A DNA stretch of 64,000 bases from an uncultured Colwellia sp. (GTDB taxonomy: Bacteria; Pseudomonadota; Gammaproteobacteria; Enterobacterales; Alteromonadaceae). Below are positions 6,180 through 56,910 of this stretch, piece after piece; within the stretch, counting starts at the first letter, position 1; each line of letters opens with the position of its first letter. A program made the translations under genes and the position numbers. Location of the stretch: NCBI GenBank assembly GCA_913049915.1, contig CAJWZC010000001.1:55271-119270 (forward strand), given 5' to 3'. Below the pieces are notes generated by a model. That model did not search any database and was not told the DNA's origin. It saw only the letters and a program-made list of their open reading frames with translations.

Positions 6180-6189
6180 ATAGCACTCG

Positions 6190-6375: not shown

Positions 6376-6425
6376 CTCTATGAACCAATTTAAGAATAAT
6401 ACTAAATAAAAGAACAGGAAATAAT

Positions 6426-23152: not shown

Positions 23153-24379
23153 TTAATTAATAAAAGCAGCTTTGAAAAATTGCAGTAAATTAATATTGTA
23201 CTCGCTAGGTTTAATACAGCAATCAATTTCGTCTTTTTGCTTGGCTTGGCTGAGATTTATCTCTTCCATTGCAATGGCTTGATTTAGTCTAGTGTTATAA
23301 AATACTCGAACAAAAGGTTGCAATGGTCGACTTTTATTAAGACAACTTATCAGGCCAAGTTTACCACTAGTAAGTTTGACTAAAGTGCCTATAGGATAGA
23401 TACCAAGACAGTTAATAAATTGTTCAACTAAAGTCTTGTCATAACTATTTGGCGTTTCTTTCATTAAAATATTGAAGGCATTGATAGGGTGCATTGCGTC
23501 CTTATAAGGACGCTCACCGGTCATAGCATCATAACTGTCAACAATTGCTATCATACGTCCATATTGAGTGATTTGTTGTTCATTTAGTTGATTGGGGTAA
23601 CCTTTACCATCAAGACGTTCGTGATGTTGTTGTACTATTTCTATCACGAGTTTAGGTAAGTCAGGGCTTTGCTTTAGCAGTTCGATGCCCAAGTTTACAT
23701 GACTTTTCATCACTTCATACTCTTGAGGATCGAGTTTACTGGGTTTGTGTAATATTTCTGGTGGGACTAAGACCTTACCGATGTCATGTAAAAATGCACC
23801 GAGGGCTAGTTGTTCAATAATTTTACGGTCAAAGGCTAAATGTTTTGCAAATAAAGTCATTAAGATAGAAACATTGAGGGAATGCTCGACTAAGTATTCA
23901 TCTTTAATACGCAGGCGTGTCATGCAGACTAAGGCATCTTGATTTCGAAATATAGAGTCGACAATGGCATCGGTAGACTCTTTTGCTTGTAATACATTAA
24001 TCGTTTTGTGTTCGGTAAGACTGTTAAGTATTTTATGCTGTAAACTTTTTGCACCATCATAGAGTTTACTGGCTTTGATCATCTCTTGGTCAAATGAAAT
24101 CCCATTACTTTCTTTTTTCGATTTAACTGGCGTTATTTTTGTATTAATTTGAGGTAGGATTTTATCAATTTTCTCTACTTTTTTTTGTTTTTTAGGGTCA
24201 ACGGTTAAGTCGGTAATACCGGCTTTAATGAGCTTTTGGATACTTTCTTTAGAATTTATATACCCTTCAGATTTTATACCAACAGCTTTACCTTTGATAC
24301 GAACAGACAAAACATACATGCCAGGCTCAAGTCGATCGACTGTTATTTTTTGGATAGGGGACTCAGGGATAATACTCAT
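23153..24379 (-). CDS. HD-GYP domain cyclic-di-GMP phosphodiesterase (DUF3391-HD-GYP)
   Basis: A 408-aa cytoplasmic protein with an N-terminal DUF3391 domain (VDRLEPGMYVLSVRIKGKAVG) and a full HD-GYP domain from about residue 150: LVEHSLNVSILMTLFAKHL, FLHDIGKVLVPPEILHKPSKL, VQQHHERLDGKGYPNQL and YDAMTGERPYK. All metal ligands and the GYP triplet are present, so hydrolysis of c-di-GMP is likely. There is no receiver or sensor domain other than DUF3391. The gene is convergent with the HD gene at 22.5 kb. It contrasts with the degenerate HD-GYP protein at 41.8 kb. Confidence 0.92.
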   Translation of the reverse strand: MSIIPESPIQKITVDRLEPGMYVLSVRIKGKAVGIKSEGYINSKESIQKLIKAGITDLTVDPKKQKKVEKIDKILPQINTKITPVKSKKESNGISFDQEMIKASKLYDGAKSLQHKILNSLTEHKTINVLQAKESTDAIVDSIFRNQDALVCMTRLRIKDEYLVEHSLNVSILMTLFAKHLAFDRKIIEQLALGAFLHDIGKVLVPPEILHKPSKLDPQEYEVMKSHVNLGIELLKQSPDLPKLVIEIVQQHHERLDGKGYPNQLNEQQITQYGRMIAIVDSYDAMTGERPYKDAMHPINAFNILMKETPNSYDKTLVEQFINCLGIYPIGTLVKLTSGKLGLISCLNKSRPLQPFVRVFYNTRLNQAIAMEEINLSQAKQKDEIDCCIKPSEYNINLLQFFKAAFIN

Positions 24380-41454: not shown

Positions 41455-41751
41455 ATGGAAAGATTAAAAGAATCTCAAAAAGCGTTAACGCTTATCTATA
41501 ATGCTTATAATGAAGTAACACCGACTCCTCTAACCGCCTTAGATATTGATGATGAGGCGGGACTGAAGATATTACTTAATACCGTGATGAATCGAGAATC
41601 GGTCTCGCATATGCAAAATAAAAAAGCACTTAAAGAGAGTATCGAACTGCGTAGCTCTATAGCCGATGTACTATTGTTGCTTGATAACTGTGACATTAAG
41701 GAAATTAAAGCTAACATGAAAAAAGCGACAGCTGTGGAAGCTACTAACTAA
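41455..41751 (+). CDS. Unknown 98-aa helical protein
   Basis: A mostly helical soluble protein (MERLKESQKALTLIYNAYNE...VLLLLDNCDIKEIKANMKK). I do not recognise a family. No signal peptide and no cysteine cluster. It sits alone between the gltBD terminator and the convergent response-regulator gene. Codon use looks like its neighbours. The ribosome site is poor (AATAAAAAAT). Confidence 0.6.
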   Translation: MERLKESQKALTLIYNAYNEVTPTPLTALDIDDEAGLKILLNTVMNRESVSHMQNKKALKESIELRSSIADVLLLLDNCDIKEIKANMKKATAVEATN

Positions 41752-41839: not shown

Positions 41840-43135
41840 TTACGGTTGGTTTTGAATGAACAGAGAGAATTGTTCCTCATGTTCCTTACTGATCTCTAGT
41901 AACTTATCTATATGACTTTGCTCAATGACAGTACCTTTTGTTAATAATATATTTGATGAGCTATTTACTACATCTTGCGTCAATATTAAGCCCTTAGATA
42001 GCTGTAATAAGTCAATTGGAAATTCTAGTTTGTTCGCGGTACTACTATCAGAAAACCCTGATAACATATTAAGATAAATTGAGAGTAATTTAGGGTCAAA
42101 TCGACTTCCAGCTAATTTCGCCAACCTTTGTTTTGCTTCAGTGACGGATACGGGTGTTATTTGTTGCCGACCAATCACTAAATTATCAAAGCTAGTAACA
42201 ATCGCTAGAATTCGGGATCCAAGGGGAATGTCGTCACCGATTAAGTGTTCTGGTAAGCCAGTGCCATTAATATGTTCAGGGATATGTTTGATTATTTCAA
42301 TAACAAAGGAGAGTTCATCGACACCACTTAATAAATCAGCGCTTGTTTGATAAAAACTATCAAAAAGAGTCTGCTCCTGATGATTAAGTTGTTCGTAAGG
42401 CTGTCTAAGAAGCTTTTGCGGTAATGATATTTTTCCAGCTTCATATAATAATCCAGCGATATATATTTGATAACTGAGTAACTTATCACAGCCTTGTAGT
42501 TCAGCAATATAACGGGCATGAGAGGCAATTCTATAATTATGTTGTCTATACTCTTCATTATGTAATGCAATACTGTTGGCATAAATACAGACAAAGGTAT
42601 TAAAGGTTTTCTTTAAACGCGCAAAACTTTTTGCTTCTTTTGTCGAAATTAGATCAAGTTTTTTTTTACTTTTATTAATTTCAAGCTCCATCGAGCTATT
42701 TAATAAAGAAAGCTTAGCATTCTTTTCTTTATTCACCCTGAGTAACTTCTTGGTACTTAACTCAGACAAATAGACAGTAAAAGCATCTTTTAGCTCTGCA
42801 ATAAGCTCTATATTGTCCCATGGTTTAGTAAAGTAGTGGCTGATTTTTCCTTCATTAACAGCGGCAACGGTAAGATTAATATCAGCATAACCTGATAATA
42901 AAAATCGTTTTGAGCTAGGATTTATTTCACTAATATGGCCTAATAGTGCGGCACCATCCATTTCAGGCATTCTCATATCAGACAATACTAACGGCGTTGG
43001 TTTCTCGCGATAAAATTCTAGCGCTGCAATAGGGTCAGAAAATAGAAACAATTCAAATTCCAATCTTAATGCTCTATTTAGCGCACTTAGAACTTCCTTA
43101 TCATCATCAATAACCAATAAAGCTGGCTTACTCAT
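41840..43135 (-). CDS. Response regulator with degenerate HD-GYP output domain
   Basis: A 431-aa protein. The N-terminal receiver is intact (LLVIDDDKEVLSALNRAL, phospho-acceptor Asp in VLSDMRMPEMDG, Lys in YFTKPWDN). A helical linker follows (about 130-165), then an HD-GYP-like domain in which key residues are lost. The HD dyad position reads AGLLYEAGKISLP instead of LHDIGKI.P, the HHExxDGxGYP position reads HIPEHINGTGLPEHL, and several metal-binding His/Asp are absent. Catalysis of c-di-GMP hydrolysis is therefore unlikely; it may bind ligand or partner. It is divergent from the sigma-54 activator gene, with which it shares a 181-bp control region. Confidence 0.88.
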   Translation of the reverse strand: MSKPALLVIDDDKEVLSALNRALRLEFELFLFSDPIAALEFYREKPTPLVLSDMRMPEMDGAALLGHISEINPSSKRFLLSGYADINLTVAAVNEGKISHYFTKPWDNIELIAELKDAFTVYLSELSTKKLLRVNKEKNAKLSLLNSSMELEINKSKKKLDLISTKEAKSFARLKKTFNTFVCIYANSIALHNEEYRQHNYRIASHARYIAELQGCDKLLSYQIYIAGLLYEAGKISLPQKLLRQPYEQLNHQEQTLFDSFYQTSADLLSGVDELSFVIEIIKHIPEHINGTGLPEHLIGDDIPLGSRILAIVTSFDNLVIGRQQITPVSVTEAKQRLAKLAGSRFDPKLLSIYLNMLSGFSDSSTANKLEFPIDLLQLSKGLILTQDVVNSSSNILLTKGTVIEQSHIDKLLEISKEHEEQFSLFIQNQP

Positions 43136-43316: not shown

Positions 43317-44786
43317 ATGAATATAGTCAATGAAGCTCAAAATACCTATTTACCATTACTTGTATTGGTTGATGATGAACAAGATATCCTTACAGCCTTG
43401 GAAAGGGTTTTACGTGGCCTACATATCAATATTCAAAGTTTTAGCTCTGCGCTTGCTGCCTTAGAGTTCTGTCACCACAACCAACCTGAAATTGTTATTT
43501 CGGATCAACAGATGCCTGAAATAGAAGGTTGTACTTTTTTAAATGAAATAAAAGCGTTATGGCCAAAATCTCAGCGAATTATTTTGTCAGCACATCAAGA
43601 TTTTGACAAAATATCGAAGGCGTTTAATTCTGGGACCGTCGACAGGTTCATATGTAAACCATGGAACAACAAAGAGTTAAAATTTATTATTACTAAAGCA
43701 TTAGATAATACTCCTTTGAAAAGTACGGAAGTCGCTGAAAAAGGTTTCATCAATGAACCGATAAATTTTCATGGTATGGTCGCCGCTGATGAGGCGATGA
43801 AAGAGCTCTTTGTTAGTATTCGTCATGCGGCGACTACTAATGCACCTATTTTTATCACCGGTGAAACGGGTACTGGTAAAGAGTTAGTAGCTAAAGCGTG
43901 TCACAAAGAAAGTTATCAGCAAAGTCAGCCTTTTATCGCGGTTAATTGCGCTAACTTTACGAAGCACTTAATGGAGTCTCAGTTATTTGGCCATACAAAA
44001 GGTGCATTTACTGGCGCTACCACCTCGCAAGAAGGATTATTTGCTGCAGCTAAATCTGGCATGTTGTTTTTAGATGAAATAACGACTTTATCAACAACAC
44101 TACAAGCTAAGTTACTGCGGGTTGTGCAAGAACGAGAATTTACGCCATTGGGCACCAATAAAGTAGAAAAGTTTCATGCTCAACTTATCTCAGCGTCTTC
44201 AAATTCAATAAGACAAGCAGTGTTAGATGGTAATTTTCGAGAAGATCTCTATTACCGCTTAAACGTGATTACTTTTTGTCTACCACCATTAAGGGATCGC
44301 GGTGGAGATATTGTATTAATTGCTCGTTACTTTCTTAAAAAATACAGTAAAATTGAAAATAAATTGTTTGTTCGTTTTTCAAAAGGTTGCCTTCAAATTA
44401 TTTGCCAATATGATTGGCCGGGTAATATTAGACAACTAGAAAATATTATTCATGGTATGGTGATATTAAATACTGGCGATAAGTTAACCAGTGAAATGAT
44501 TATTAAGGCTTTATCTAGTACGATTGGTTTATCTGATAATATTTTACCAGTATCAAATCGAGTAACCAGACCTGCAATTCGGTCTGAAGAGCGGTCTGAA
44601 ACACCTATTGAACAAACGTCAAATCCGTTAGCGACTAATACTAATACTGAAATAATACCATTATGGTTGACAGAGAAAAATGCTATTGAAAATGCGATAA
44701 ATTATTGCCAAGGAAATATTCCTCAAGCAGCAGCATTACTTGAAGTAAGTCCATCGACACTGTATCGAAAAAAACTCAGTTGGTAG
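43317..44786 (+). CDS. NtrC-type sigma-54-dependent response regulator
   Basis: A 489-aa protein. The receiver domain (about 12-130) has PLLVLVDDEQDILTALERVL, the Asp in VISDQQMPEIEG and the Lys in FICKPWNN. The central AAA+ domain has Walker A GETGTGKELVAKACH, the sigma-54-contact loop GAFTGA and Walker B GMLFLDEI. The C-terminal Fis-type HTH reads NAINYCQGNIPQAAALLEVSPSTLYRKK. It activates sigma-54 promoters when phosphorylated; no kinase gene is in the window. Its receiver is similar in wording to that of the divergent degenerate HD-GYP protein. The polysaccharide cluster that begins next door has -24/-12-like promoters, making it the likely target. Confidence 0.95.
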   Translation: MNIVNEAQNTYLPLLVLVDDEQDILTALERVLRGLHINIQSFSSALAALEFCHHNQPEIVISDQQMPEIEGCTFLNEIKALWPKSQRIILSAHQDFDKISKAFNSGTVDRFICKPWNNKELKFIITKALDNTPLKSTEVAEKGFINEPINFHGMVAADEAMKELFVSIRHAATTNAPIFITGETGTGKELVAKACHKESYQQSQPFIAVNCANFTKHLMESQLFGHTKGAFTGATTSQEGLFAAAKSGMLFLDEITTLSTTLQAKLLRVVQEREFTPLGTNKVEKFHAQLISASSNSIRQAVLDGNFREDLYYRLNVITFCLPPLRDRGGDIVLIARYFLKKYSKIENKLFVRFSKGCLQIICQYDWPGNIRQLENIIHGMVILNTGDKLTSEMIIKALSSTIGLSDNILPVSNRVTRPAIRSEERSETPIEQTSNPLATNTNTEIIPLWLTEKNAIENAINYCQGNIPQAAALLEVSPSTLYRKKLSW

Positions 44787-44853: not shown

Positions 44854-46122
44854 TTAACACATCACTAAGTAGCGTTGAACATCTATTGCTCTACTTTCCC
44901 ATGATTCATTAATGACTGATGATTTTCTTATATTTTTAATGTCAGTAATGGCTAGTAAATCAGTTATCTTTTCAAGTTTATCAAAATTAATGGCAGGTGT
45001 TATTTCAGCATTTGCTAGCAATATTGCTTGATGAAAAGGGGTGACCTTACTAGCAATTTGTAGGTATTTTCGATACCCCTTTAATGCATTGAAATCTGTG
45101 GTGACTATCGGTGTGCCACTAGCTAGATACTCTCTTAATTTCAGAGGGTTACACATTTTTATTTGTTTGTTGTTTACAAAGGGTAACATCGCTACATTCC
45201 AGTTCTGTATATATTTAGGTAAGTCATTATGTGGTCTAGTCCCTAAAAAATAGACATTAGAAAATTGTTGTAGTTTATCCACATTACAGGCAACTTTACC
45301 GATAAAAACAAAATGCCAATGCGGCAATGCTTTAATAGTTTCCACTAATAAATTTTGATCTAACCAAGCTGAAATACTGCCATAAAAACCAGCGATAGGT
45401 TTGCCTTGCGGTAAATCATTTGGTGTATGCATTACCTGCTTACTAAAGAGTTTAAAATCAACACCATGGGGAATATTGACTGTCTTTTCATGAGGAAATC
45501 TTTCTAACATTTTTTCACTAGCGGTAAAGATATAGTTTGATTTTTCAACTAACAACGCTTCTTTGTCTGATACAAAATTGTGATCAACACCTGCAAGGCT
45601 ATTAAAGTCATCTCCGCAATAATAAATGCAAGGAGCATTGTCAAAGAGTTCTAAATAATCAACGGCGGTAGGTAAAGATGACCAAATAATAGGATCTTTT
45701 ATCGTAAGTTTTTTATAGGCTAAGTTGAGTTGCCATTTCAAGATAACTTTACTTAGTTTTAAAGAAAACCAACTATTAGCACAGGGCATAACTAACGGGT
45801 TTATGATGAGGAAATGACTGCTGGTGTCAATATGAGTGACTTCATTGGTATTATTACCTTTTTCACTGTTAGTGGACTGATTAACAAAGAACGACTTAAC
45901 TTTGTTAAAAAGTCGCTTCAAGTCATGTGGTGTTACCTTTGGCTTTCTTAGTCCAATTGAATTAAGCCAAATAACCGGTCTTGTTTTACAGAGCACTTTC
46001 ACTATATGCTGAGTTGAGCTAGGATGAGCGCCCCAGTCCTCGCCAAAAACGATGATAGGCTTATTTTTAATTGATGGTAGTGACGCCTTTGAAGGTTTTG
46101 AATTGCTTATCATACTAGTCAT
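44854..46122 (-). CDS. Glycosyltransferase (GT4-like), last gene of polysaccharide cluster
   Basis: About 422 aa. It has a GT-B fold without membrane spans: the N-terminal domain contains KPIIVFGEDWGAHPSSTQHIVKVL, and the C-terminal domain shows GKPIAGFYGSISAWLDQNLL, FIGKVACNVDKLQQFSNVYFLG and KLREYLASGTPIVTTD, the donor-binding E-x7-E-like region. The ORF-track start at 46179 overlaps the upstream gene too far. The ATG at 46122 (MTSMISNSKPSK) has GAGGAGG seven bases before it and overlaps the acetyltransferase stop by 8 bp, indicating translational coupling. Confidence 0.85.
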   Translation of the reverse strand: MTSMISNSKPSKASLPSIKNKPIIVFGEDWGAHPSSTQHIVKVLCKTRPVIWLNSIGLRKPKVTPHDLKRLFNKVKSFFVNQSTNSEKGNNTNEVTHIDTSSHFLIINPLVMPCANSWFSLKLSKVILKWQLNLAYKKLTIKDPIIWSSLPTAVDYLELFDNAPCIYYCGDDFNSLAGVDHNFVSDKEALLVEKSNYIFTASEKMLERFPHEKTVNIPHGVDFKLFSKQVMHTPNDLPQGKPIAGFYGSISAWLDQNLLVETIKALPHWHFVFIGKVACNVDKLQQFSNVYFLGTRPHNDLPKYIQNWNVAMLPFVNNKQIKMCNPLKLREYLASGTPIVTTDFNALKGYRKYLQIASKVTPFHQAILLANAEITPAINFDKLEKITDLLAITDIKNIRKSSVINESWESRAIDVQRYLVMC

Positions 46123-46843
46123 GACTATCCTCCTCGATTGAATTAATAACCCTTGCTGGTACGCCAGCAGCGAGTACAAAACAGGGTAAGTCTTTGGTGA
46201 CTACACTACCCGCTGCGACGATAGTGCCACGACCAATTGTTACCCCTGGCATTACTTTTACCCCTGTGGCTAGCCAAACGTCGTCATCCAATATAATGTC
46301 ACCGACTTGTGAGTCTTCATCAGGTTTACCTAAAGCGCGTAACTTAGCATTAATAGGATGTCCCGGATAACCAGCTAGATAACAATCACCAGCAATACGT
46401 ACATTATTACCAAGGATAATGGTATTACCGACTGATATTGAGGTACGCCAACCAATGCCAACATTATCACCAATAATTAACTGCGGAATGTTATCTCCAA
46501 CAGCACGCCCACTGATTGTTGTCATAGCCGCTAATCTTACTTTATCTCCCATGATAATATCTAAGCTGCCTATTACTACAGGCAAGCCACCATATAAATA
46601 TAAGCCTTGAGGATTATTCTTTAGCCTAGACTTAAGTAAAGGCGTGTAATAAATAATGCGTAGTACATCTGAAATCGTTTGCTTTAAAATTACATGTACT
46701 AAATAAAGTAGTTTAAATACAACAGGGATGTTCGGCATCGCTAGAACTTTAATTTTAAACCATACTGTTTTTATAAGTAGGGCTAAAAAACTATCACTAT
46801 TTTTAGCCCACTGCTTTGCGTGGTCTACATTAAAGGAATTCAT
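46115..46843 (-). CDS. Hexapeptide-repeat acyltransferase (WcaF-like)
   Basis: A 242-aa left-handed beta-helix acyltransferase. Hexapeptide repeats run from about residue 90 to the end: IGDNVGIGWRTSISVGNTIILGNNVRIAG, then the loop DCYLAGYPGHPINA and IGRGTIVAAGSVVTKDLPCFVLAAGVPARVI. It likely O-acetylates a sugar of the polysaccharide, as WcaF does for colanic acid. It starts inside the glmS stop (ATGA overlap) and overlaps the next glycosyltransferase, so it belongs to the same transcript. Confidence 0.88.
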   Translation of the reverse strand: MNSFNVDHAKQWAKNSDSFLALLIKTVWFKIKVLAMPNIPVVFKLLYLVHVILKQTISDVLRIIYYTPLLKSRLKNNPQGLYLYGGLPVVIGSLDIIMGDKVRLAAMTTISGRAVGDNIPQLIIGDNVGIGWRTSISVGNTIILGNNVRIAGDCYLAGYPGHPINAKLRALGKPDEDSQVGDIILDDDVWLATGVKVMPGVTIGRGTIVAAGSVVTKDLPCFVLAAGVPARVINSIEEDSHD

Positions 46844-48636
46844 TCTACTGTTACCGATTTTGCTAAGTTTCTGGGTTGGTCAACATTTTTTCCTAATATT
46901 TGAGCTGTGTATAAGGCCAGTAATTGCATGGGGATAACACTGATTATCGGTAGTATTGATTCTGGTATTTCTGGTAGTTCAAAAAATTCATTTTCTTGTA
47001 AGCTGATATGCTGCTTAATGCTACTATCGCCAATAATAAACAGCGGGGCATTTCGTGCTTGTGCTTCTTGAATATTTGAAAGTAATTTATCTGTCAGCGT
47101 ATTTTTAGGCGCAATAACCAGTACTGGCATGTGTTCATCAAGTAAAGCTATAGGGCCATGTTTTAACTCACCCGCAGCATAGGCTTCAGCATGAATGTAA
47201 CTAATTTCTTTTAATTTTAACGCGCCTTCTTGCGCTATAGCGGTTAGTGCACCACGACCAAGGAAAAGAGCATTTGAATAGTTTGCTAATTTTTTCGCTA
47301 TTTTTTTCATATCAGTACAGCGTTGTAATACTGTCTCCATGATATAAGGCAATTTCATAAAATTAAGCGCTAACTGCTTTACTTCAACATTTTTGATAAA
47401 GGCTCTTTGTTTGGCGGCCTCAATAGCCATCTTATAAAAGATTGCTAACTGACAGGTAAATGCTTTTGTTGAAGCAACCCCAATTTCTGGACCAGCAAAA
47501 ATTTCAAAGGTGAAATTAGCTTCTCGCGCTATGCTACTGTTTGCAACATTGACTAAAGCGAGTGTTTGACAATTTTTATTTTTTGCATAACGCAAGGCTG
47601 CTAACGTATCTGCGGTTTCACCAGACTGAGAGACAAAAATAACCAATTCATTGTCTATGATGATAGGTGAACGATAACGGTATTCTGAGGCGATATCTAT
47701 TTCTACTAGGATATTGGCGTACTTTTCAAACCAAGATTTTGCTACTGAGGCTGCATAATATGAGGTGCCGCAAGCTATAATAGTGATCTTATTTAAGTTT
47801 TTAAAATTTATAGTTGAATACTCGCCAGTATGGTTATTAACTGACAACCTTTTAAGGAGATCTACTTGTTCAAAAATTTCTTTTTCCATGAAAGAGCTAT
47901 AATCGCCTTTTGATATTACCTTTACACAATGTTTGTTATTAATATAATGAATTTTTTTATTGGCTGAACCACTGCATAATTTTATTTCATTGGTATTTAA
48001 TTTGATTAATTCATTGTCTTTAGGGTAATAGATCTTACCACTATCAGGACCTAATGCCATCGCATCTGAAGCCATATAAGCACCATTATTACCTTCGGAT
48101 ATGACTAAGGGACTACCTTGCTTAATGGCATAGAGGTTTTTGCTAGCGCCATTAATTAACACACCAAGGGCATAGCTACCTTTTAATTGGTTGATAGCTT
48201 GTTCAATAGCTTCTTCTTGCGACATTTGCTGAGCAAGGTAATGGTTTATTAAATGTGGGATCACTTCACTATCCGTTGAACTATTAAAGTGATGACCCCA
48301 TTGCATTAATTGCTGCTTTAACTGCAAGTAGTTTTCAATAATGCCATTGTGTACAACAGATACTTGACCACATTGATGAGGGTGAGCATTAGTGACATTG
48401 GCTTTACCGTGTGTTGCCCATCGGGTATGACCTATGCAACAGTCACCCTCTATTGGTTGCATCGACAATCGTTGTTTTAGATTATTAAGTTTACCTTGTG
48501 CTTTGATGGTTTGAATTTCGTTATTTGATAATATTGAAATACCTGAAGAATCATAACCTCGATATTCAAGTTTACCCAAACCTTCTAATACAGGATTTAT
48601 TGCTGATTCTGCTACTGCTCCAATAATTCCACACAT
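46840..48636 (-). CDS. glmS: Glutamine--fructose-6-phosphate aminotransferase (isomerizing) within the EPS cluster
   Basis: A 598-aa GlmS. Cys2 (MCGIIGAV) is the glutaminase nucleophile. The amidotransferase domain has GHTRWATHGKANVTNAHPH. Two SIS domains follow (ACGTSYYAASVAKSW, VSQSGETADTLAALRYAK, STKAFTCQLAI) and the C terminus is NLAKSVTVE. It makes glucosamine-6-phosphate, the start of UDP-GlcNAc synthesis. Its position between glycosyltransferase genes suggests a pathway-dedicated copy beside the housekeeping one, which is not visible here. It has its own upstream -24/-12-like promoter. Confidence 0.94.
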   Translation of the reverse strand: MCGIIGAVAESAINPVLEGLGKLEYRGYDSSGISILSNNEIQTIKAQGKLNNLKQRLSMQPIEGDCCIGHTRWATHGKANVTNAHPHQCGQVSVVHNGIIENYLQLKQQLMQWGHHFNSSTDSEVIPHLINHYLAQQMSQEEAIEQAINQLKGSYALGVLINGASKNLYAIKQGSPLVISEGNNGAYMASDAMALGPDSGKIYYPKDNELIKLNTNEIKLCSGSANKKIHYINNKHCVKVISKGDYSSFMEKEIFEQVDLLKRLSVNNHTGEYSTINFKNLNKITIIACGTSYYAASVAKSWFEKYANILVEIDIASEYRYRSPIIIDNELVIFVSQSGETADTLAALRYAKNKNCQTLALVNVANSSIAREANFTFEIFAGPEIGVASTKAFTCQLAIFYKMAIEAAKQRAFIKNVEVKQLALNFMKLPYIMETVLQRCTDMKKIAKKLANYSNALFLGRGALTAIAQEGALKLKEISYIHAEAYAAGELKHGPIALLDEHMPVLVIAPKNTLTDKLLSNIQEAQARNAPLFIIGDSSIKQHISLQENEFFELPEIPESILPIISVIPMQLLALYTAQILGKNVDQPRNLAKSVTVE

Positions 48637-48695
48637 AACAATTACCTCTTAATATTATTAGTTTATTTATATTGTGAGTTGATTATTATTACTGT

Positions 48696-48711
48696 TGCAG
48701 TTATTGAGCCA
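48696..48711 (-). promoter_or_regulatory. Candidate sigma-54 promoter upstream of glmS
   Basis: The minus strand reads TGGCTCAATAACTGCA. Compared with TGGCACG-N4-TTGCW it keeps TGGC and C in the -24 element and TGCA in the -12 element, with the correct GG-to-GC spacing. The -12 element lies about 60 bp before the glmS ATG. Three of the twelve defined positions differ. Confidence 0.55.
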
Positions 48712-48786
48712 TAATATAATGGTATTATAATCAATGGTATACTTATGGAAATATATTTCATTTGCATTTTGCAATGTGATATTTTG

Positions 48787-49908
48787 CTAATTAGGAATAC
48801 ATTTAATAATCTGAGAATAGCAATCTAGATGACAATATTGTTGTGCTGAATTTCTAGCTTGATGAGAAACTTCCTGTAAAAAGTTAGGTTCTTCTATTAA
48901 TCGAGTTAATGCTTGAACTAAACTTTTTATGCTATTAGGATCATATTTTACACAGTCGAAACCGTCGGTTAAGTGTTGATCCCAATAAGCATTATCAGCA
49001 GGAATTACAATGGCAAGTCCAGCAACCATTGATTCTAAAATTGATAGACCAAAAGGCTCATTTTGTGAAGTAGAGATAAATACAGATGAGTTTGCTCTAA
49101 TATCATTTAAATTCTTAGGATCTACATACCAGTGAATATTTTTTGCCTCATCAAAACTATCAATATTTACATAGGTCTTAGTTTGTGGCTTGATATAACA
49201 AACATTAGCAAAATATTTATCTACGTCATTAGAAATACTATTGAGCTCTGAAATAGCGGCTAAAAAGAGCTCTATACGTTTCCATTCTAATAAAGAAGCA
49301 GCCCATAAAAAGCCAATTTTATTCCGGGTAATTTTCGCTTTTATCGTTGAACAGTCAATACCATTAACAAAAGGTATATACTTGTTGTCTGCCATTGTCA
49401 TATTGTCATTCAGCAGGTCGTTATTACTGTAGGATTTTAGTGCATCTAAAATGGAAGCATGAGCAGAGGGTAGGTAAAACACTTTTTTTGCTCTTGCTAA
49501 ACCAAAACCCGCAACTTTTGAGTTAGCAATATCACCTTGAATAAGTTGAATAATTTCTATGTTAATTAGTTCAGTAAGTAGATATAAAGAAAAGTCTACA
49601 TTCGGGCCAGAAAAACCAATTATTTTTGTAAAACGCTTAAGTTTTATTATATTGAATATCAACGAAAATAAATAAATAAGGTGCTTAAAAAAGTAAAGTA
49701 TTCCGGTCGTTTTATCCTGCAAAAAATGAGGAGAAAACAACGGCACAAAGTGTAGATTATTATCGCAACTGTTATACCACGAGTCGTTATCGTTAGAAAT
49801 AACCCATACCTCAATATCTAGGGGTAATTCAGCGAGGATTGTTTTCATCACTTTTTTAGATCCGCCTTTAAAAGGTACAGGATCATAAATTAATACGCGA
49901 TTAATCAT
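48787..49908 (-). CDS. Glycosyltransferase family 4-like protein
   Basis: A 373-aa GT-B protein. It begins RVLIYDPVPFKGGSKKVMKTIL, with the acceptor-side glycine loop. The C-terminal donor-site region shows FVNGIDCSTIKAK, KIGFLWAASLLEWKRIELFL and FISTSQNEPFGLSILESMVAGLAIVIPAD, i.e. the E-x7-E motif of GT4 enzymes. It presumably adds one sugar of the polysaccharide repeat. It overlaps the upstream glycosyltransferase by 8 bp and is followed by the 150-bp gap that carries the glmS promoter candidate. Confidence 0.88.
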   Translation of the reverse strand: MINRVLIYDPVPFKGGSKKVMKTILAELPLDIEVWVISNDNDSWYNSCDNNLHFVPLFSPHFLQDKTTGILYFFKHLIYLFSLIFNIIKLKRFTKIIGFSGPNVDFSLYLLTELINIEIIQLIQGDIANSKVAGFGLARAKKVFYLPSAHASILDALKSYSNNDLLNDNMTMADNKYIPFVNGIDCSTIKAKITRNKIGFLWAASLLEWKRIELFLAAISELNSISNDVDKYFANVCYIKPQTKTYVNIDSFDEAKNIHWYVDPKNLNDIRANSSVFISTSQNEPFGLSILESMVAGLAIVIPADNAYWDQHLTDGFDCVKYDPNSIKSLVQALTRLIEEPNFLQEVSHQARNSAQQYCHLDCYSQIIKCIPN

Positions 49909-51202
49909 GATTTTTACTCCCAGTAAGATTCAATACTAAGTGCTTAAAGTTGTGTGTTAAAAATTTGGGTAAGACTTTTGTTAAGGTTTTAATTAAAATA
50001 GCTATACATAGTGTTTTAACATGTAATAACAACATTTTTGTCATACCATATTTAGTTTTACGCTTTAACAAAGTTTGATAAGCACGATTGAACGCTACCC
50101 ATTGCTGCTTTAAAGAGAATTTTTTTACTATGTGTTTTTCTGCATTCTCAGCAAGACTCTTTCTTAACAGTGGCTTATCAATTAAAGACTTTATTGCCAC
50201 AACCAGTTCATCGGTATTATTAGGAGGAACTAATAGTGCGTGTTTTTTATCGGTATATATTTCATTAATACCTGCAATATTACTGGTGATGACAGGAAGA
50301 TTAGCAATACTTGCTTCGGCCAGCGTTAAGCCAAAAACTTCTTCCGAAGGCACTGAAATAAAACAATCTGCATTGCTTGAATACATTTCAGCAACTTTAT
50401 CGCAAGCTGAAAAAAATTTAACCTTGTTATGTAAATTAAGCTTATTAACCAAATGTATTAATTTAGCCTTTTCACTACCAGAGCCAACAATAGCAAGTTT
50501 TATTTGATAACCTTGTTTTAAGTTATCTATGGCATACAGTAATTGATGCACTAATTTTCTTGGGATTAATGAGCCAATATACAAGATGACAAAATCAGTC
50601 GCTTTTGCTGATAGTTCTTCTCTAATATCTCTAGGCTTAAGGCAAAGCACTCTATTTGGGTCAATACCATTATAGATAACTTCTACTTTCTGATGGCTAA
50701 ATTCATTATTTTTAAATATTCTAGTGACTGATTGGCTGACACCTACGATGCTATCCGCGCCGTGAAACAATAAGGTTAATCTGTCTCTAAACATGTAACG
50801 CGCATGTAAATGCAGTAATAGCGCAGTCCTGGTAAATTTACAAATGGGTACCATCCATTGGCAGGGTGCTCCATTATTACAATGTACTAGACAAATTTTA
50901 TACGTTTTTATTATTTTTTCAGCTTTAAGTAATAGTCGGAAAAACTGTAAAAAATTCCATCTAGGCAAGGTCCAGTAACCTAAGCACACAAAGTCATCGA
51001 CAATAACTTCAACACCTAAATCAGTCGCTTTTTTGGCTAAAACATTACTATTGCACCAAAGTAATGGCGAGTAATTATTTTCTTTAGCTGACTTGAGTAA
51101 ATCTAATAAAACAATTTCGCTACCTCTGATCCAATTATCACCGTAGTGAACATATAAAACCGTTGGCCTAATTTCTCTATCTAGTACGATAGTTTTAGAC
51201 AT
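49901..51202 (-). CDS. Glycosyltransferase family 4 protein
   Basis: About 433 aa with a GT-B fold. The N-terminal region is VLYVHYGDNWIRGSEIVLLDLLK. The GT4 core reads VIYNGIDPNRVLCL, FVILYIGSLIPRKLVHQLLYAI, KVKFFSACDKVAEMYSSNADCFISVPSEEVFGLTLAEASIANLPVITSNIAGINEI. A C-terminal basic and hydrophobic tail (HVKTLCIAILIKTLTKVL) may attach it to the membrane. The ATG at 51202 is preferred over the GTG two codons upstream because GGAG is well spaced. It is part of the minus-strand operon. Confidence 0.9.
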   Translation of the reverse strand: MSKTIVLDREIRPTVLYVHYGDNWIRGSEIVLLDLLKSAKENNYSPLLWCNSNVLAKKATDLGVEVIVDDFVCLGYWTLPRWNFLQFFRLLLKAEKIIKTYKICLVHCNNGAPCQWMVPICKFTRTALLLHLHARYMFRDRLTLLFHGADSIVGVSQSVTRIFKNNEFSHQKVEVIYNGIDPNRVLCLKPRDIREELSAKATDFVILYIGSLIPRKLVHQLLYAIDNLKQGYQIKLAIVGSGSEKAKLIHLVNKLNLHNKVKFFSACDKVAEMYSSNADCFISVPSEEVFGLTLAEASIANLPVITSNIAGINEIYTDKKHALLVPPNNTDELVVAIKSLIDKPLLRKSLAENAEKHIVKKFSLKQQWVAFNRAYQTLLKRKTKYGMTKMLLLHVKTLCIAILIKTLTKVLPKFLTHNFKHLVLNLTGSKNHD

Positions 51203-51230
51203 ATTCACTACTCCTGTTACTGGCTATAGT

Positions 51231-52607
51231 TTATGGTCGTTTTGAATTGACGTTTATTATTGAGTTGTTTTTAGATGTTAAATAACGGTTTAACGCTATT
51301 ACTAAAGCGACTTGTAAGTAAATTGCCCAGATAAAGCCTTGGGTTAAAAATGTGCCAGAAACAATAAAACCAATAATACCAGCTGGGGCTGCATTAAGCG
51401 CAACACGTATACCTGGGGTGTGGTGTTCATCATTGGCTGTTTTCAACATTTTTAAAGACATCAATAAAGTACTGACAATCAAAGACACGAATAATATAAG
51501 ACCAACGAAACCAGATTCAGCCAACACACCAAACCAAGTAGAATGAACGGCATGATTTAATCCATCCCAGTGAGGGCTATAGTAAAAATAATTATAATAA
51601 AAATTATTAATACCAACACCTAATATAGGATTATCTAGTGCCATATTCCATGCTGCTTCCCATGCATACAAACGGCCCATTGCTGATTCATCTATACCTG
51701 ATTCTGCAGCGCCTCCAGAAGATCGTTCACTAATACCTGCCACGATAAATAAAATAATTACCAAAATTATACTACCTGAAAATAGTAAAATTTTAGAGCG
51801 TATGCGTTTATAGGCAAATAGGCTTACTACCGCTAAAAATCCTAATAAACCACCACGGCTTTGAGTAGCCAATATCGCATAAAGTAGAATACTAAAAGTA
51901 GTAAAGCTAAAAAATCGTTCGAACTTAGAAAGAGATTTTTCTAGAAAAGAGGCTATAGCGAACGCCATGGGATACAAAAGTACCAGCGCTAAATCATTGG
52001 GATCGCCAAGTAAAGATCCTATGCTTCGACCTATAGTGACCCGAGTTCCTTCAACTAAACCAATATTATTAAACTTGTTATACAAGGCAACTAAGCCAAC
52101 ACAAGCACCAGCAAAGATAAATACTCTACTTGTGGTAATAAAGTGGATTTCTTTACGCATCATCCAAGCAACAATAAAGGTAATTAATATAATTTTGCTA
52201 TACGTTCCTGACCAAGACTTTACTGCTACGGCGACATTGGTAGCAAAAGGTATCGCAATAGTCACCACAATAAAAAATAGTAATAAATAGGTAAATTGTC
52301 GACACCAGTAAGGCTGGAGATTTTTACTGATGGTAGCGCGTAAACAAACGACAAATATTGCTGCTAACGCTAATAACAAAGGTAATTTTAACGGCTCTAA
52401 AAACGGAAATACTTCATGGATACGGAAAAAAGAAAAAACGACGAATGCTAAGACTATATAAAATGAGAAATTAACTATTCCCCAAAGCGCAAAGGGAAAC
52501 AATCCTATAACAATGAGAATAAATGGATGAGGGAAAAAGCATAACGCTAATGTCGTTAGCGTTAATACCACCACCATACTTACTATTACTAAAGGAGAAT
52601 AAGTCAT
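51231..52607 (-). CDS. O-antigen ligase/polymerase family membrane protein (Wzy/WaaL-like)
   Basis: A 458-aa inner-membrane protein with about 10-12 hydrophobic spans. The large periplasmic loop contains GRLYAWEAAWNMALDNPILGVGINNFYYNYFYYSPHWDGLNHAVHSTWFGVLAESG, the Wzy_C (O-antigen ligase) signature with the conserved H...H pair. It would polymerise or ligate undecaprenyl-linked repeats on the periplasmic side. The flippase gene ends 3 bp upstream, so the two are co-translated. Confidence 0.9.
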   Translation of the reverse strand: MTYSPLVIVSMVVVLTLTTLALCFFPHPFILIVIGLFPFALWGIVNFSFYIVLAFVVFSFFRIHEVFPFLEPLKLPLLLALAAIFVVCLRATISKNLQPYWCRQFTYLLLFFIVVTIAIPFATNVAVAVKSWSGTYSKIILITFIVAWMMRKEIHFITTSRVFIFAGACVGLVALYNKFNNIGLVEGTRVTIGRSIGSLLGDPNDLALVLLYPMAFAIASFLEKSLSKFERFFSFTTFSILLYAILATQSRGGLLGFLAVVSLFAYKRIRSKILLFSGSIILVIILFIVAGISERSSGGAAESGIDESAMGRLYAWEAAWNMALDNPILGVGINNFYYNYFYYSPHWDGLNHAVHSTWFGVLAESGFVGLILFVSLIVSTLLMSLKMLKTANDEHHTPGIRVALNAAPAGIIGFIVSGTFLTQGFIWAIYLQVALVIALNRYLTSKNNSIINVNSKRP

Positions 52608-52609
52608 GT

Positions 52610-53920
52610 TTAGCTCACTTGTCCAAACCAGGTGGCGACAACAGCAGCGCCAATTGCTGGATATAAATAACTAAATTTGTACGGCAGGTAGATCTTTTTT
52701 TGACTGAAATAAAAGAAAAGTCCAAACCGGATAATACCGGCAACTATCAGCGCTATTAGTGCACCATCGATCATAAATAATGGTACCAACAGTATTAGTA
52801 ATAACCCACCAATGGTACTGGCTACTAAATTAATATTCATTTGTACTTTTGAGCTTTTTTCTATAAAACAACCTAAGTTTAATAGATCAGACAGCATCTT
52901 TAATAAGGTAAAAAGTAATAACCAAGGTAAAATACTAATAGCGCCGTGGTAAGCGATAGGTGTTAAATAATGAATGAGTAGCGGCCCTAGTAAGCCTAAA
53001 CCACCACATATAAGTACTGATATGATGGCGCCAACCATAGCAAAGTGTGCGTTAATGCTTTTGCCATCATGTTCTTTAAGCACAGAAAACCGTTTAGGAA
53101 ACCACCATAAGGTGAAAGGTTGAATAAGTAGGGTAGGGACTAAGGCAAACTTGATTGCGATAGCATAGGCAGCAATTTGGGTAGTACCAAAATAGTCAGT
53201 GAGTAACCATCTGTCCATGCCTGATAAAGTAAATGTCGCTGCACCCCCTATAAATATTGGACCTGCATAAGTGATTATGCTTTTAAGATTTTTTAGCGAA
53301 AAGCTAATTTTTGTTTCTTTTAATTGAATGATACATAAAATAATTGCAACAATAACTGAGGATATAGCGCCTGCAGCTAAAATACTGGTGATTCCCCAGC
53401 CATTGATCAACCAGTAAAAAGTGAGCGAAACTTGCAGTACTACCTTTAGTATCGAAATGGTGAAGAATAATCCAGCTCGTTCAGTAATTCGTAACCAGGC
53501 TAATGGGATATTAATTAGTCCCCCTACAGACAATGCTACGCCAAGTAAATAAAGCTCATTTTCTGTGATATCTCCCGGTAAGAAAGGCAATAACTCTTTA
53601 GAATAAAAATGGAAAAATCCATAAGAAATAAGGGCTATTACACCCGCTACTAATAAACATTCAGCGGCATGACGTTGCTTTTTTTCAATACCATCAGCTA
53701 AACCGACAAACCGATATAGTGCTTCGACTAAACCAAATCCTAAGACGATAGAAACAATATTAGAAAATACTACTAACAGCTCCAATCTACCGTAATCTGA
53801 TGGCATTAAGTAGCTGGTATAAATAGGCAGCATCACTAAAGAAATACCTTTCATTAGGAAAATACTAAGGCCATAAAGTGCCGATTGGTTTAATAGGTTT
53901 TTATATCGACTATTTAGCAT
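52610..53920 (-). CDS. Oligosaccharide flippase (Wzx-like, MOP superfamily)
   Basis: A 436-aa polytopic membrane protein with about 12 spans. It begins YKNLLNQSALYGLSIFLMKGISLVMLPIYTSYLMPSDYGRLELLVV, the N-terminal pattern of polysaccharide transporters of the Polysacc_synt/MOP superfamily. It likely moves lipid-linked repeat units across the inner membrane for the neighbouring polymerase. It overlaps the first GT gene by 11 bp. Confidence 0.9.
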   Translation of the reverse strand: MLNSRYKNLLNQSALYGLSIFLMKGISLVMLPIYTSYLMPSDYGRLELLVVFSNIVSIVLGFGLVEALYRFVGLADGIEKKQRHAAECLLVAGVIALISYGFFHFYSKELLPFLPGDITENELYLLGVALSVGGLINIPLAWLRITERAGLFFTISILKVVLQVSLTFYWLINGWGITSILAAGAISSVIVAIILCIIQLKETKISFSLKNLKSIITYAGPIFIGGAATFTLSGMDRWLLTDYFGTTQIAAYAIAIKFALVPTLLIQPFTLWWFPKRFSVLKEHDGKSINAHFAMVGAIISVLICGGLGLLGPLLIHYLTPIAYHGAISILPWLLLFTLLKMLSDLLNLGCFIEKSSKVQMNINLVASTIGGLLLILLVPLFMIDGALIALIVAGIIRFGLFFYFSQKKIYLPYKFSYLYPAIGAAVVATWFGQVS

Positions 53921-54950
53921 GAGAGGCTTCTATTAACGCTTTACTGTAAACATTAAAAATTTTAGGTATAACTGCATTAGTTGAAAAATTATTTTTAATA
54001 TACGAATACGAAAATGAAGTTATTTTTCTTCGTTGTTTAGCGGTTAACCTTTGTCCTATTTTGATTGACTCTAGAAAAGCTGCTTCATTATAGGGTGCTA
54101 TCAACCAGCCATTTACGTTATTTATTACTACTGAGGCAATGCCACCAATATCAAAACTGATAACAGGGATCCCCCTTACAAGCGCTTCAATAGCAACCAG
54201 TGGTAAGCCTTCTTCTCGACTGGTAATACATAACAAGCTTATTTTTGACCAGTGGGAGTTCATTGACTTAACATGCCCCTCTAGAGTCACGTTACTCGTT
54301 GCAGCAGTACTGATATCTTCTAACATAGGACCACTGCCGTATATTGAAAAATCGTACTCGGGTAACTGCTTAGCTAAGCGGATAAATACATCAGGACCCT
54401 TTTCATAACTTAAGCGACCAACAAAAGCGACTTGTGTTGCTGGTGCGGTTGTTTTAAATAACTTGGTAGGTAATACAACAAAATTTTCAATAACATCTGC
54501 GGATAAATTAGCCGATTGTTTAATTTGTTCAGAGACACAAATACAAGGGAATGAATGTGCCGTTATGCGATCAATCCAAGCATATAATCTCAACTTAATA
54601 TTACCTTTCTCACCAGAATGAAAGGTAGAAACGACCGATTTTTTTGCTAACTTACAAGTGAGCCGTCCTATAATTCCTGCTTTATAACCATGGGTGTGAA
54701 CAAGATGAATATTCGATTCTTTTAGTAAGGTAAAGAGTGCGGTAAGACTACCATCTAATTTTATCAGTATTGAGCGAAGGAATTCTTCGGACTCAAAAAC
54801 TGGATGTTCACCATAGTTGTTTAATAATATAATTTGTACGATATGTCCTGATGAATGAAGGCCTTTGGCAAGGTTAGCAACATGAGTTTCAATACCGCCA
54901 TAATCTTTACTATCAATCAGTAAAGCTATGTTTATATCTTTAGTTGTCAT
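53910..54950 (-). CDS. Glycosyltransferase family 4 protein, first gene of the cluster
   Basis: A 346-aa GT4 enzyme. It has IALLIDSKDYGGIETHVANLAKGLHSSG at the acceptor side, HTHGYKAGIIGRLTCKLAKKSVVSTFHSG, and the donor-site region VAFVGRLSYEKGPDVFIRLAKQLPEYDFSIYGSGP...LLCITSREEGLPLVAIEALVRGIPVISFDIGG. It is the first minus-strand gene of the cluster. A tandem repeat and a sigma-54-like promoter lie about 60-90 bp upstream. The ribosome site is weak (AGGTTTATTATG). Confidence 0.9.
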   Translation of the reverse strand: MTTKDINIALLIDSKDYGGIETHVANLAKGLHSSGHIVQIILLNNYGEHPVFESEEFLRSILIKLDGSLTALFTLLKESNIHLVHTHGYKAGIIGRLTCKLAKKSVVSTFHSGEKGNIKLRLYAWIDRITAHSFPCICVSEQIKQSANLSADVIENFVVLPTKLFKTTAPATQVAFVGRLSYEKGPDVFIRLAKQLPEYDFSIYGSGPMLEDISTAATSNVTLEGHVKSMNSHWSKISLLCITSREEGLPLVAIEALVRGIPVISFDIGGIASVVINNVNGWLIAPYNEAAFLESIKIGQRLTAKQRRKITSFSYSYIKNNFSTNAVIPKIFNVYSKALIEASHAK

Positions 54951-55005: not shown

Positions 55006-55035
55006 GATAATGCATAAAATGATAATGCATAAAAT
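55006..55035. repeat. Tandem 15-bp direct repeat upstream of the EPS cluster
   Basis: GATAATGCATAAAAT occurs twice without spacing (55006-55020, 55021-55035). The right-hand copy overlaps the -12 part of the sigma-54-like promoter. Confidence 0.85.
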
Positions 55036-55041
55036 AGGCCA
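55026..55041 (-). promoter_or_regulatory. Candidate sigma-54 promoter of the polysaccharide cluster
   Basis: The minus strand reads TGGCCTATTTTATGCA. It has TGGC at -24 and TGCA at -12 with canonical spacing; four of the twelve defined positions differ from TGGCACG-N4-TTGCW. It would start transcription about 65 bp before the first GT gene. The rest of 54951-55283 holds no gene. Confidence 0.5.
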
Positions 55042-55283
55042 GTTGAAATAAAGGCTTTAATAGCGCTTAAAGGGCCATTTTATCTAAGTTTCATATTTTA
55101 TATTCGCAAATTGCATAAAACACTCTAGCTTTGCAAAGAACATTAGCAATAAGAGATAATTGACTATACCTGTGTTTATTTAAAGTATATTCTGAGGCAT
55201 TTATCTTGATTAGTGACGAGTATATATTTTTGAACTAAGATTTAAAGATAAGAGACTAAGTTATTGTGGTGGTTTGATAAAGT

Positions 55284-55475
55284 ATGGAGATAAAACATTT
55301 CATACCCTTAGCACTGATGTTTATATTGGGGATAATATCAAGTATTATTTGGCTATTATTGAAACAAATTCACTCGACTTGGTGGCTAGAAAATTCTTTA
55401 TCAACACCCTTTACAGTCTTAATTATTCACAATGTATTGATGCTGACACTGATTCACATTGTTTCATCTATTTAA
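55284..55475 (+). CDS. Small two-span membrane protein (doubtful)
   Basis: A 63-aa hydrophobic ORF starting MEIKHFIPLALMFILGIISS, with two probable membrane spans (PLALMFILGIISSIIWLLL and FTVLIIHNVLMLTLIHIVSS). There is no clear ribosome site. It lies just upstream of the EEP pseudogene on the same strand and may be that gene's detached N-terminal membrane region. An overlapping 74-aa ORF in another frame is less credible. Confidence 0.35.
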   Translation: MEIKHFIPLALMFILGIISSIIWLLLKQIHSTWWLENSLSTPFTVLIIHNVLMLTLIHIVSSI

Positions 55476-55623
55476 TGTGTAGGTTACTTTTTCATTAACT
55501 TTATTTTAGCCGTTTTGTTAAATAACAACACTAGCTTTAATAATGTAGTCCCTTAAATGACAAAACCTGTATTAATCCCGTTAGTTTTTTATCAATTCAA
55601 TATAAAAATATACCCATAATAAA

Positions 55624-56244
55624 GATGGGCTCGATGAATTTATAGAATACCTTATCGTAGGACAATATCATTTAATTACCTTACAAGGCGTCAGTCAGCA
55701 ATCAAAAAAATATAATATTAAAAAATTAAGTCCTTATTATCCCTATTTTATTCGAGGTGAAAATAAACATAAGGATGTTGTAAGTGATCAGCTATTATTT
55801 AGTAAATATGCATTTACTAAGATTAAATATTATAAAAAGAGCGTTGGCTCATTTTTAATATCGAGTGTATGGCAAATGCCTTCTAGTGAAATAAGTTTAT
55901 ACTCATTACATCCGCCATCACCACGTAATAAAAATCTGTGGCAAACCAGAAATAAAACCTTATACCAATTAAAGCATGCACTTAAATATTCATCAGTAAG
56001 TAAATCAATAGTCATAGGAGATTTAAATCTTTCAAAGCATTCAGGGCGAATAAATATATTAAAATAAAAGATGAATACAACGTTTGTCAATTCATGGCCA
56101 AAAAATAGTTATGCGTTACCTATTATAGGGTTGGCGATTGATCATTTTTGGATATCAAAATCGGCGGTTATTTGCTCTAGACAACGTATTAAAAATTCAA
56201 CTGGTCAGATCATTATGCAATCAAAACAGGTAGACTTTAAATAA
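55624..56244 (+). pseudogene. Endonuclease/exonuclease/phosphatase-family gene, broken
   Basis: An open frame without start reads DGLDEFIEYLIVGQYHLITLQGVSQQ (the Glu of LQE is replaced by Gly), then LLFSKYAFTKIKYYK, SLHPPSPRNK and IVIGDLNLSKHSGR. The GDLN motif is the metal-binding part of the EEP fold. The frame stops at 56068. A second frame then continues FVNSWPKNSYALPIIGLAIDHFWISKS to 56244, with the IDH motif intact but the final SDH motif reduced to TGQ. The loss of a start, one frameshift and two active-site changes show decay. Confidence 0.75.
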
Positions 56245-56511
56245 TAATTATATCTACAGATCTATTTAAGGATCAGTAAAGTTAATTGATAAATGTCATT
56301 AGTTAATCTTTATAGTGTTACAAATAAGTAAATTTGAACAAGTGTAACTTTGACATGTCTAGTGTTGAATTTATGGCGCTTATTGCTAAATTTGTGCTGT
56401 TTAATACCTAATAATTAATAAAACCTAATTGACTCTATTGTTATCACTGGTTATTTTATTATTTATTATTTAAAATGACTTTAATAGATCGTTATATCCC
56501 TAAGGAAAATT

Positions 56512-56844
56512 ATGAACAGTGTTAAGAATCGTAGATTACGTAAAAAACTATATTTAGATGAATTTGCTATGCTAGGTTTTGAATTTTCATGTACATTAAA
56601 TGCAAAAGATTCAAATGACTTTGATTCATTATTAAGTCAATTGGTAGAGTTTGTTGAAAGCCGTGAACTTTCTATGGGAGGAGGTGGAGACAATACGCTT
56701 TTTAGCGCATTTATCTGTTCAGATCATCGTTATAAATCAGTAACTGATGAAGATCGAGCTGCTATTACAGCTTGGCTTGATGAGAACACAGCCATTGACA
56801 ATGTTATTATAGGCGAATTGATTGACGCAAATTACGGTATATAA
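56512..56844 (+). CDS. YggL-family 50S ribosome-binding protein (copy 2)
   Basis: A 110-aa YggL/DUF469 protein: NRRLRKKLYLDEFAMLGFEF, the GGGG patch MGGGGDNTLFSAF and C-terminal GELIDANYGI. It is the same length as copy 1 at 33.9 kb and shares its key motifs, but the acidic middle differs. The ribosome site TAAGGAAAATT is good. It is flanked by decayed genes, yet its own frame is clean, which argues that it is still used. Confidence 0.9.
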   Translation: MNSVKNRRLRKKLYLDEFAMLGFEFSCTLNAKDSNDFDSLLSQLVEFVESRELSMGGGGDNTLFSAFICSDHRYKSVTDEDRAAITAWLDENTAIDNVIIGELIDANYGI

Positions 56845-56910
56845 TAATGGATAGTGGTGTCAAACAAACACCAGTAGTGAATGTCATCATTATTAAGAAA
56901 AAATTAATGA

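Follow-up and report, generated by a model that had tools for sequence, protein, structure and literature searches.

A response regulator with a predicted catalytically dead HD-GYP domain, paired with a LuxO-like sigma-54 activator and linked to exopolysaccharide genes in Colwellia

Response regulators with a dead HD-GYP domain are already known from HnoD, the NosR of Burkholderia pseudomallei and PA2572, but work on them covers few species, and how they act is mostly obscure. HnoD of Shewanella oneidensis is a degenerate HD-GYP protein without phosphodiesterase activity that suppresses the EAL phosphodiesterase HnoB (PMC6335343), and the degenerate NosR of B. pseudomallei has been proposed to act in the same way (PMC12570481). 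The mechanism of PA2572 was called obscure by the authors who described it (PMC3411652). In the non-catalytic HD-GYP domain of DvhD, HD is replaced by SQ and c-di-GMP is bound without metal (PMC13090378). On the transcriptional side, the Vibrio regulator SypG, a sigma-54 activator of the same class as the one described below, turns on a polysaccharide locus (PMC10162802).

We analysed a stretch of 64,000 nucleotides from an uncultured Colwellia sp. (contig CAJWZC010000001.1; hereafter the window), in which an ORF with an ATG start encodes a 431-residue response regulator whose HD-GYP-like domain has lost most of its metal ligands.

41840 to 43135, minus strand: response regulator with the predicted catalytically dead HD-GYP-like domain, 431 aa
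42056 to 42595, minus strand: the HD-GYP-like domain itself (residues 181-360), with Y231 E232, F261, I285 P286 and T314 at metal-ligand positions and with E195, H199, K235, D317 and R323 kept

The protein consists of a receiver (residues 1-120), a long helix (about 108-192), the HD-GYP-like domain (about 181-360) and a small C-terminal alpha/beta domain (361-431). Pfam Response_reg matches residues 7-115 (1.4e-16) and HD_5 matches residues 187-350 (5.5e-34). The receiver was described as intact in a first-pass annotation of this DNA, and it is: the acidic pocket D10/D11, the phosphoacceptor D53 and K104 are all present and are invariant among 33 aligned sequences. A 98-aa ORF without a Pfam match lies between gltD and the HD-GYP gene (41455-41751, plus strand) and is 87-91% identical in two related loci (L036 and L037) despite rearranged surrounding genes. 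Elsewhere in the window, the genes at 15-8024 resemble polyunsaturated fatty acid synthase subunits (pfaC/pfaD-like, judged by eye from the translation).

The same annotation had reported loss of the catalytic motifs, and the segments that it quoted, LLYEAGK and IPEHINGTGLP, are present at the correct positions. When we aligned the domain to PmGH (4mcw), whose eight metal ligands are published (PMC4159591), only two ligands were retained, E185 (E195 here) and H189 (H199), while the other six were changed (H221 to Y231, D222 to E232, H250 to F261, H276 to I285, H277 to P286 and D305 to T314). The HD-GYP fold is recognizable from the HD_5 match and from a model that resembles the HD-GYP structures of PA4781, PmGH and DvhD. 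The HD and HH ligands and H250, which mark a catalytic HD-GYP phosphodiesterase, are absent, and their replacements are fixed in the clade. To judge from its sequence, the protein is a NosR/RpfG-type HD-GYP protein without a metal centre that would not cut c-di-GMP. Residual phosphodiesterase activity, or activity toward another substrate through a different metal site, is very improbable: E195, H199, K235 and D317 survive, but HD, H250 and HH are all replaced (the HH pair by Ile and Pro, H250 by Phe), and single alanine changes at H221, D222, H250, H276 or H277 essentially abolish PmGH activity (PMC4159591). A canonical HD-GYP enzyme is encoded in the genome as well, judging by the HD and HHE motifs left intact in a separate DUF3391/HD-GYP protein of the window (23153-24379, minus strand).

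We then asked how the replacement residues are conserved. The dead clade was sampled with 10 sequences, the window protein among them and the others coming from Colwellia, Psychromonas and an uncultured gammaproteobacterium. In this set, Y231, F261, I285 and N318 are each found in 10 of 10 and E232, P286 and R323 each in 9 of 10. Catalytic relatives retained HD, H250 and HH in 39 of 39 cases; intact HD and HH were the criteria by which these relatives were picked, so H250 alone provides an independent count. Since 35 of the 39 already have Asn at the D305 position, five replacements are specific to the dead branch. Pairwise dN/dS against two close relatives was 0.06 and 0.09 for the HD-like domain, compared with 0.04-0.07 for the receiver. 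Together with the fixed substitutions, these low values argue against a decaying pseudo-enzyme and suggest that the domain is constrained for something besides its original chemistry. In one metagenome-assembled genome (G023:C157; L028/L035/L070), the dead HD-GYP gene is in two frames, covering residues 1-102 and 98-427, which is a frameshift or an assembly error.

On a tree of 79 family proteins, the HD motif changes state at least eight times, with at least five of the changes forced by well-supported branches, indicating that catalytic loss recurs in this family; the window protein's own clade is degenerate throughout. Variants of the motif in the NosR-type family include HE, HN, HA, LQ, AD, KD and YE, spread across proteobacterial lineages (L061-L140). 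Repeated loss of HD offers natural comparisons of enzyme with pseudo-enzyme, and for the dead branch a database label like "c-di-GMP phosphodiesterase, NosR family" would be misleading.

The AlphaFold model of the protein (mean pLDDT 89, pTM 0.64) has as its closest structure the c-di-GMP-bound non-catalytic HD-GYP domain of DvhD (9rbz, TM 0.81 by target length), although active PA4781 and PmGH score nearly as high, so that the fold match cannot separate receptor from enzyme. At the level of residues, R323 aligns with DvhD R650 and PmGH R314 and is Thr in most catalytic relatives, and L250 and L319 match hydrophobic DvhD contacts. Against this, the other canonical-site contacts of DvhD (Y621, K582, Y652 and E668) and PmGH K317 are unmatched, and the position of the GYP tyrosine (L294) varies freely within the clade. 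Binding of c-di-GMP thus appears possible from the sequence and the model. The further step, that the protein is a metal-independent c-di-GMP receptor in which the ligand alters dimerization of the long helical stalk, gates the receiver, kinase or activator branch and so ties the c-di-GMP level to EPS transcription, we regard as the less likely reading, though one to be taken seriously.

We next examined the gene that faces the dead HD-GYP gene.

43317 to 44786, plus strand, divergent from the dead HD-GYP gene: sigma-54-dependent response regulator (REC-AAA+-Fis HTH, LuxO/NtrC type) with a NosR-type receiver

This protein has the features of a bacterial enhancer-binding protein, namely an AAA+ domain with a GAFTGA motif and a Fis-type HTH, and RpoN is encoded in the window genome. 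The closest solved structure in a structure database search was LuxO. It falls short of all three equivalog models that we considered, scoring 396.1 bits against a cut-off of 800 for LuxO (NF041946) and 309.6 bits against 502.6 for PrsR (TIGR02915), and lying far under the cut-off for NtrC. The receivers of the two proteins are 39% identical, and among all receivers of the genome the activator's gives the top non-self match to that of the dead protein (71.5 bits, with other receivers at 27.6 or below); the NosR family model also matches the activator's receiver, with 128 bits. A divergent NtrC-type neighbour with a similar receiver, as described in the first-pass annotation, is therefore present, and the co-conservation that it named as a check is borne out by the pair being adjacent and divergent in most orthologous loci, including those of most genus genomes that have the dead protein. 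The two genes are co-directional in two distant Colwellia homologues (L029 and L030). In at least three genomes (loci L041, L044 and L047, from G010, G012 and G003), the dead HD-GYP gene is kept and the adjoining sigma-54 activator is a different one, about 37% identical; these activators lie by an EPS cluster of their own, where the predicted upstream activating sequences are likewise TTGCAN3TGCAA.

Sister receivers are what would be expected if one kinase phosphorylates both regulators. They would also suit a phosphate sink, in which the receiver alone matters, drawing phosphate of the shared kinase away from the activator, and the rest of the dead protein is scaffold. Strong purifying selection on the HD-like domain and its fixed new pocket residues would be needless in a pure sink, and we give this explanation only a small chance.

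The kinase itself was found through a distant homologous locus (L055), where genes for a Peripla_BP_6 protein and a histidine kinase come after that for a dead-type regulator. The window genome encodes a homologue of this kinase on contig C2 (60% identity over 598 of 602 residues), in a gene that overlaps a Peripla_BP_6 gene and is unlinked to the regulator pair. The pair is thus not an orphan; the first-pass annotation had recognized the two regulators but not the kinase and periplasmic sensor, whose genes are at another locus of the genome. Across 39 Colwellia genomes, the kinase is present in 20 of the 21 that have the dead protein, and each of the 22 kinase-bearing genomes encodes either the dead protein or its distant homologue (Fisher p ~1e-7, uncorrected for relatedness and inflated because the genomes are non-independent). 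Colwellia sp. BB5 (L061), Psychromonas hadalis (L068) and an uncultured gammaproteobacterium (L069) each carry the genes for binding protein, kinase, activator and dead HD-GYP protein side by side.

In many wider relatives, catalytic ones included, a histidine kinase lies directly upstream of the HD-GYP regulator, which suggests that a kinase/HD-GYP pair is ancestral and that the sigma-54 activator joined it later. One could go further and propose that a former phosphodiesterase regulator became a nucleotide-responsive or protein-contact gate on its sister activator: the ancestral pair would have gained an activator carrying a copy of the receiver, after which the HD-GYP protein lost catalysis and gained the pocket residues F261, I285, P286 and R323. 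We hold this history to be speculative, with something like one chance in a handful of being correct; if true, a single kinase output would be read in two ways, through transcription and through c-di-GMP-dependent gating of EPS.

The regulator pair sits beside a cluster of EPS genes, as had been noted in the first-pass annotation, which spans 44854-54950 and contains glycosyltransferases, a Wzx flippase, a Wzy_C ligase, a hexapeptide transferase and glmS.

44854 to 46179, minus strand: glycosyltransferase (TuaH-like)
46115 to 46843, minus strand: hexapeptide acyltransferase
46840 to 48636, minus strand: glmS (glucosamine-6-phosphate synthase), first gene downstream of the predicted sigma-54 promoter
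48696 to 48711, minus strand: -24/-12 sigma-54-like element TGGCTCAATAACTGCA, 50 bp downstream of the UAS and upstream of glmS
48762 to 48774, no strand: palindrome TTGCATTTTGCAA, an exact LuxO-type upstream activating sequence (UAS), one of only five in the 3.8-Mb genome
48787 to 54950, minus strand: remainder of the EPS cluster, comprising the next five genes
48787 to 49908, minus strand: glycosyltransferase
49901 to 51208, minus strand: glycosyltransferase
51231 to 52607, minus strand: Wzy_C ligase/polymerase
52610 to 53920, minus strand: Wzx flippase
53910 to 54950, minus strand: glycosyltransferase
55026 to 55041, minus strand: weak candidate -24/-12 element TGGCCTATTTTATGCA upstream of 53910-54950, partly conserved in L038 and with no exact UAS, on which we do not rely

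Reading from glmS, the gene order continues with the hexapeptide transferase and a glycosyltransferase. We saw no Wzz or initiating transferase in the window cluster. The DNA next to it (55270-56850) holds short broken ORFs, one of them with a GDLN motif that may be the remnant of an endonuclease/exonuclease/phosphatase-family gene.

Comparison of the region upstream of glmS in three genomes revealed a conserved palindrome, TTGCAAAATGCAA, followed after 50 bp by a -24/-12-like element, which is kept in L036 and takes the form TGGCCTAAATACTGCT in L038. The palindrome is identical to the LuxO UAS, TTGCAW3TGCAA (PMC11443567, PMC10162802). Searching the window with a plain sigma-54 consensus yielded chance-level matches only, so the case for the predicted glmS promoter rests on conservation and on the adjoining UAS. 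Three of the five genomic UAS copies have a GG-N10-GC element 50-73 bp downstream and precede, respectively, glmS, a gene for a secreted DUF6923/GEVED/DUF4842 protein on contig C2 and a gene for a predicted secreted protein on contig C71. The remaining matches, between rluD and comL and inside nadB, have no adjoining sigma-54 promoter before a gene and were set aside as chance occurrences. The site on contig C71 (G000:C71:4694-4794; L145) precedes a predicted secreted protein without a Pfam match, which, on the strength of that site, is a candidate further matrix protein of the regulon. The site on contig C2 belongs to a second EPS locus.

G000:C2:47000-66000 (L146): second EPS locus with the Peripla_BP_6 protein, the histidine kinase, a UAS/sigma-54 promoter, the DUF4842 secreted protein, Wzz, two glycosyltransferases and a sugar-phosphate transferase

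The DUF4842 gene lies directly downstream of the kinase gene, with its predicted UAS/sigma-54 promoter between the two, and in several relatives it adjoins the activator. Because Wzz, the glycosyltransferases and the sugar-phosphate transferase (named by eye and from relatives in L045) follow the DUF4842 gene, the EPS genes of the window genome appear to be split over two loci; the C2 locus complements the window cluster.

To place these sites in a wider context, we searched 39 genomes for the composite of a UAS and a GG-N10-GC element and found 57 sites, versus 13 for a reversed control. The 25 genomes that have the system contain 49 composite sites, of which 30 lie within 40 kb of a dead-HD or kinase gene, an area that makes up about 2% of the sequence. 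In the loci examined outside Colwellia, no composite site was found, and the four-gene module lies among housekeeping genes rather than beside EPS genes. The EPS link is therefore seen in Colwellia only, and conservation of the pair next to EPS genes, which the first-pass annotation had suggested checking, holds within that genus and not in the loci examined outside it. Its broader interpretation fared unevenly as well: catalytic death is supported by the fixed pocket substitutions, the pairing by conservation of the gene pair, and the EPS connection, in Colwellia, by predicted activator sites upstream of EPS and matrix genes, whereas the proposed link to c-di-GMP has R323 in its favor and lacks the GYP tyrosine, PmGH K317 and most of the polar DvhD contacts. 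The structure prediction that it called for was similarly two-sided, with a dead c-di-GMP receptor nearest and active enzymes almost as close.

On balance, we favor a pseudo-phosphodiesterase response regulator that acts by protein contact within a four-component circuit switching on EPS and matrix genes, an explanation that we judge to be probable. The Peripla_BP_6 protein and the membrane histidine kinase would sense an extracytoplasmic signal, and the kinase would phosphorylate both regulators through their sister receivers. The LuxO-like activator would then bind TTGCAN3TGCAA and turn on the glmS/EPS genes and the secreted DUF4842 matrix proteins, while the dead HD-GYP protein, unable to cleave c-di-GMP, would modulate the same pathway through a phosphorylation-dependent conformation and contact with the kinase, the activator or, as in HnoD, a c-di-GMP enzyme. 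The sequences themselves show that the metal centre has been lost, that the replacement residues are constrained, that the module is conserved and that predicted target sites are present; from these we infer the shared kinase, direct binding of the activator to its sites, and the modulator role of the dead protein and its sign.

Among described systems, HnoK-HnoB/HnoC/HnoD resembles the proposed circuit in that one kinase serves both a transcriptional regulator and a degenerate HD-GYP protein working through protein contact. HnoC is not known to have an AAA+ domain. The Hno system also differs in having an NO/H-NOX input and a dedicated EAL enzyme, HnoB. An arrangement of that kind would have the dead regulator acting, as inhibitor or activator, on a separate c-di-GMP phosphodiesterase or cyclase, so that the kinase would set EPS transcription via the activator and the c-di-GMP level via the dead protein. 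It draws support from HnoD and the degenerate Burkholderia NosR being the closest studied analogues. Nevertheless, no constant GGDEF or EAL gene was found in the neighborhoods scanned, where a GGDEF-EAL gene occurs in L036 only, and we consider such an arrangement unlikely. NosR of the Burkholderia NosP-NosK-NosR system (PMC12570481) shares with the dead protein a receiver joined to an HD-GYP domain, an altered catalytic motif (HG-GTP in B. pseudomallei) and a histidine kinase partner; the dead protein differs in having YE, a Peripla_BP_6 sensor instead of FIST/NosP and a sigma-54 activator as partner. We do not regard it as a NosR equivalog, since its score against NF053512 (355.9 bits, residues 6-427) is below the cut-off of 400 and the gene content also differs: there is no FIST/NosP gene at the window locus, and the genome's only FIST match is on contig C127.

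PA2572 of Pseudomonas aeruginosa (YN-GYP) likewise combines a receiver with an inactive HD-GYP variant and contacts its partner via the receiver, but that partner is an orphan chemosensor, and no pairing with a sigma-54 regulator was reported there (PMC3411652). DvhD of Desulfovibrio vulgaris is non-catalytic and has the nearest solved fold, with R650 aligned to R323, but it is a membrane dCache-PAS receptor that controls a periplasmic protease, whereas the dead protein is a response regulator. The activator resembles Vibrio LuxO in its REC-AAA+-Fis architecture and identical UAS, although LuxO targets qrr RNAs and the predicted targets here are EPS and DUF4842 genes; in the literature examined, no dead HD-GYP partner was reported for LuxO or SypG. 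PrsK/PrsR of PEP-CTERM EPS systems also place a histidine kinase and a sigma-54 response regulator by EPS genes, and the activator is distinguished from PrsR by its score under the TIGR02915 cut-off. We did not find the combination of binding protein, kinase, LuxO-like activator and dead HD-GYP protein with sister receivers, and with sites before EPS/DUF4842 genes, in the literature searched. While dead HD-GYP regulators themselves are known, the module appears to be new in its combination, and because the protein comes with a kinase, a sensor, a sister activator and DNA target sites, all of them predicted, its role is testable.
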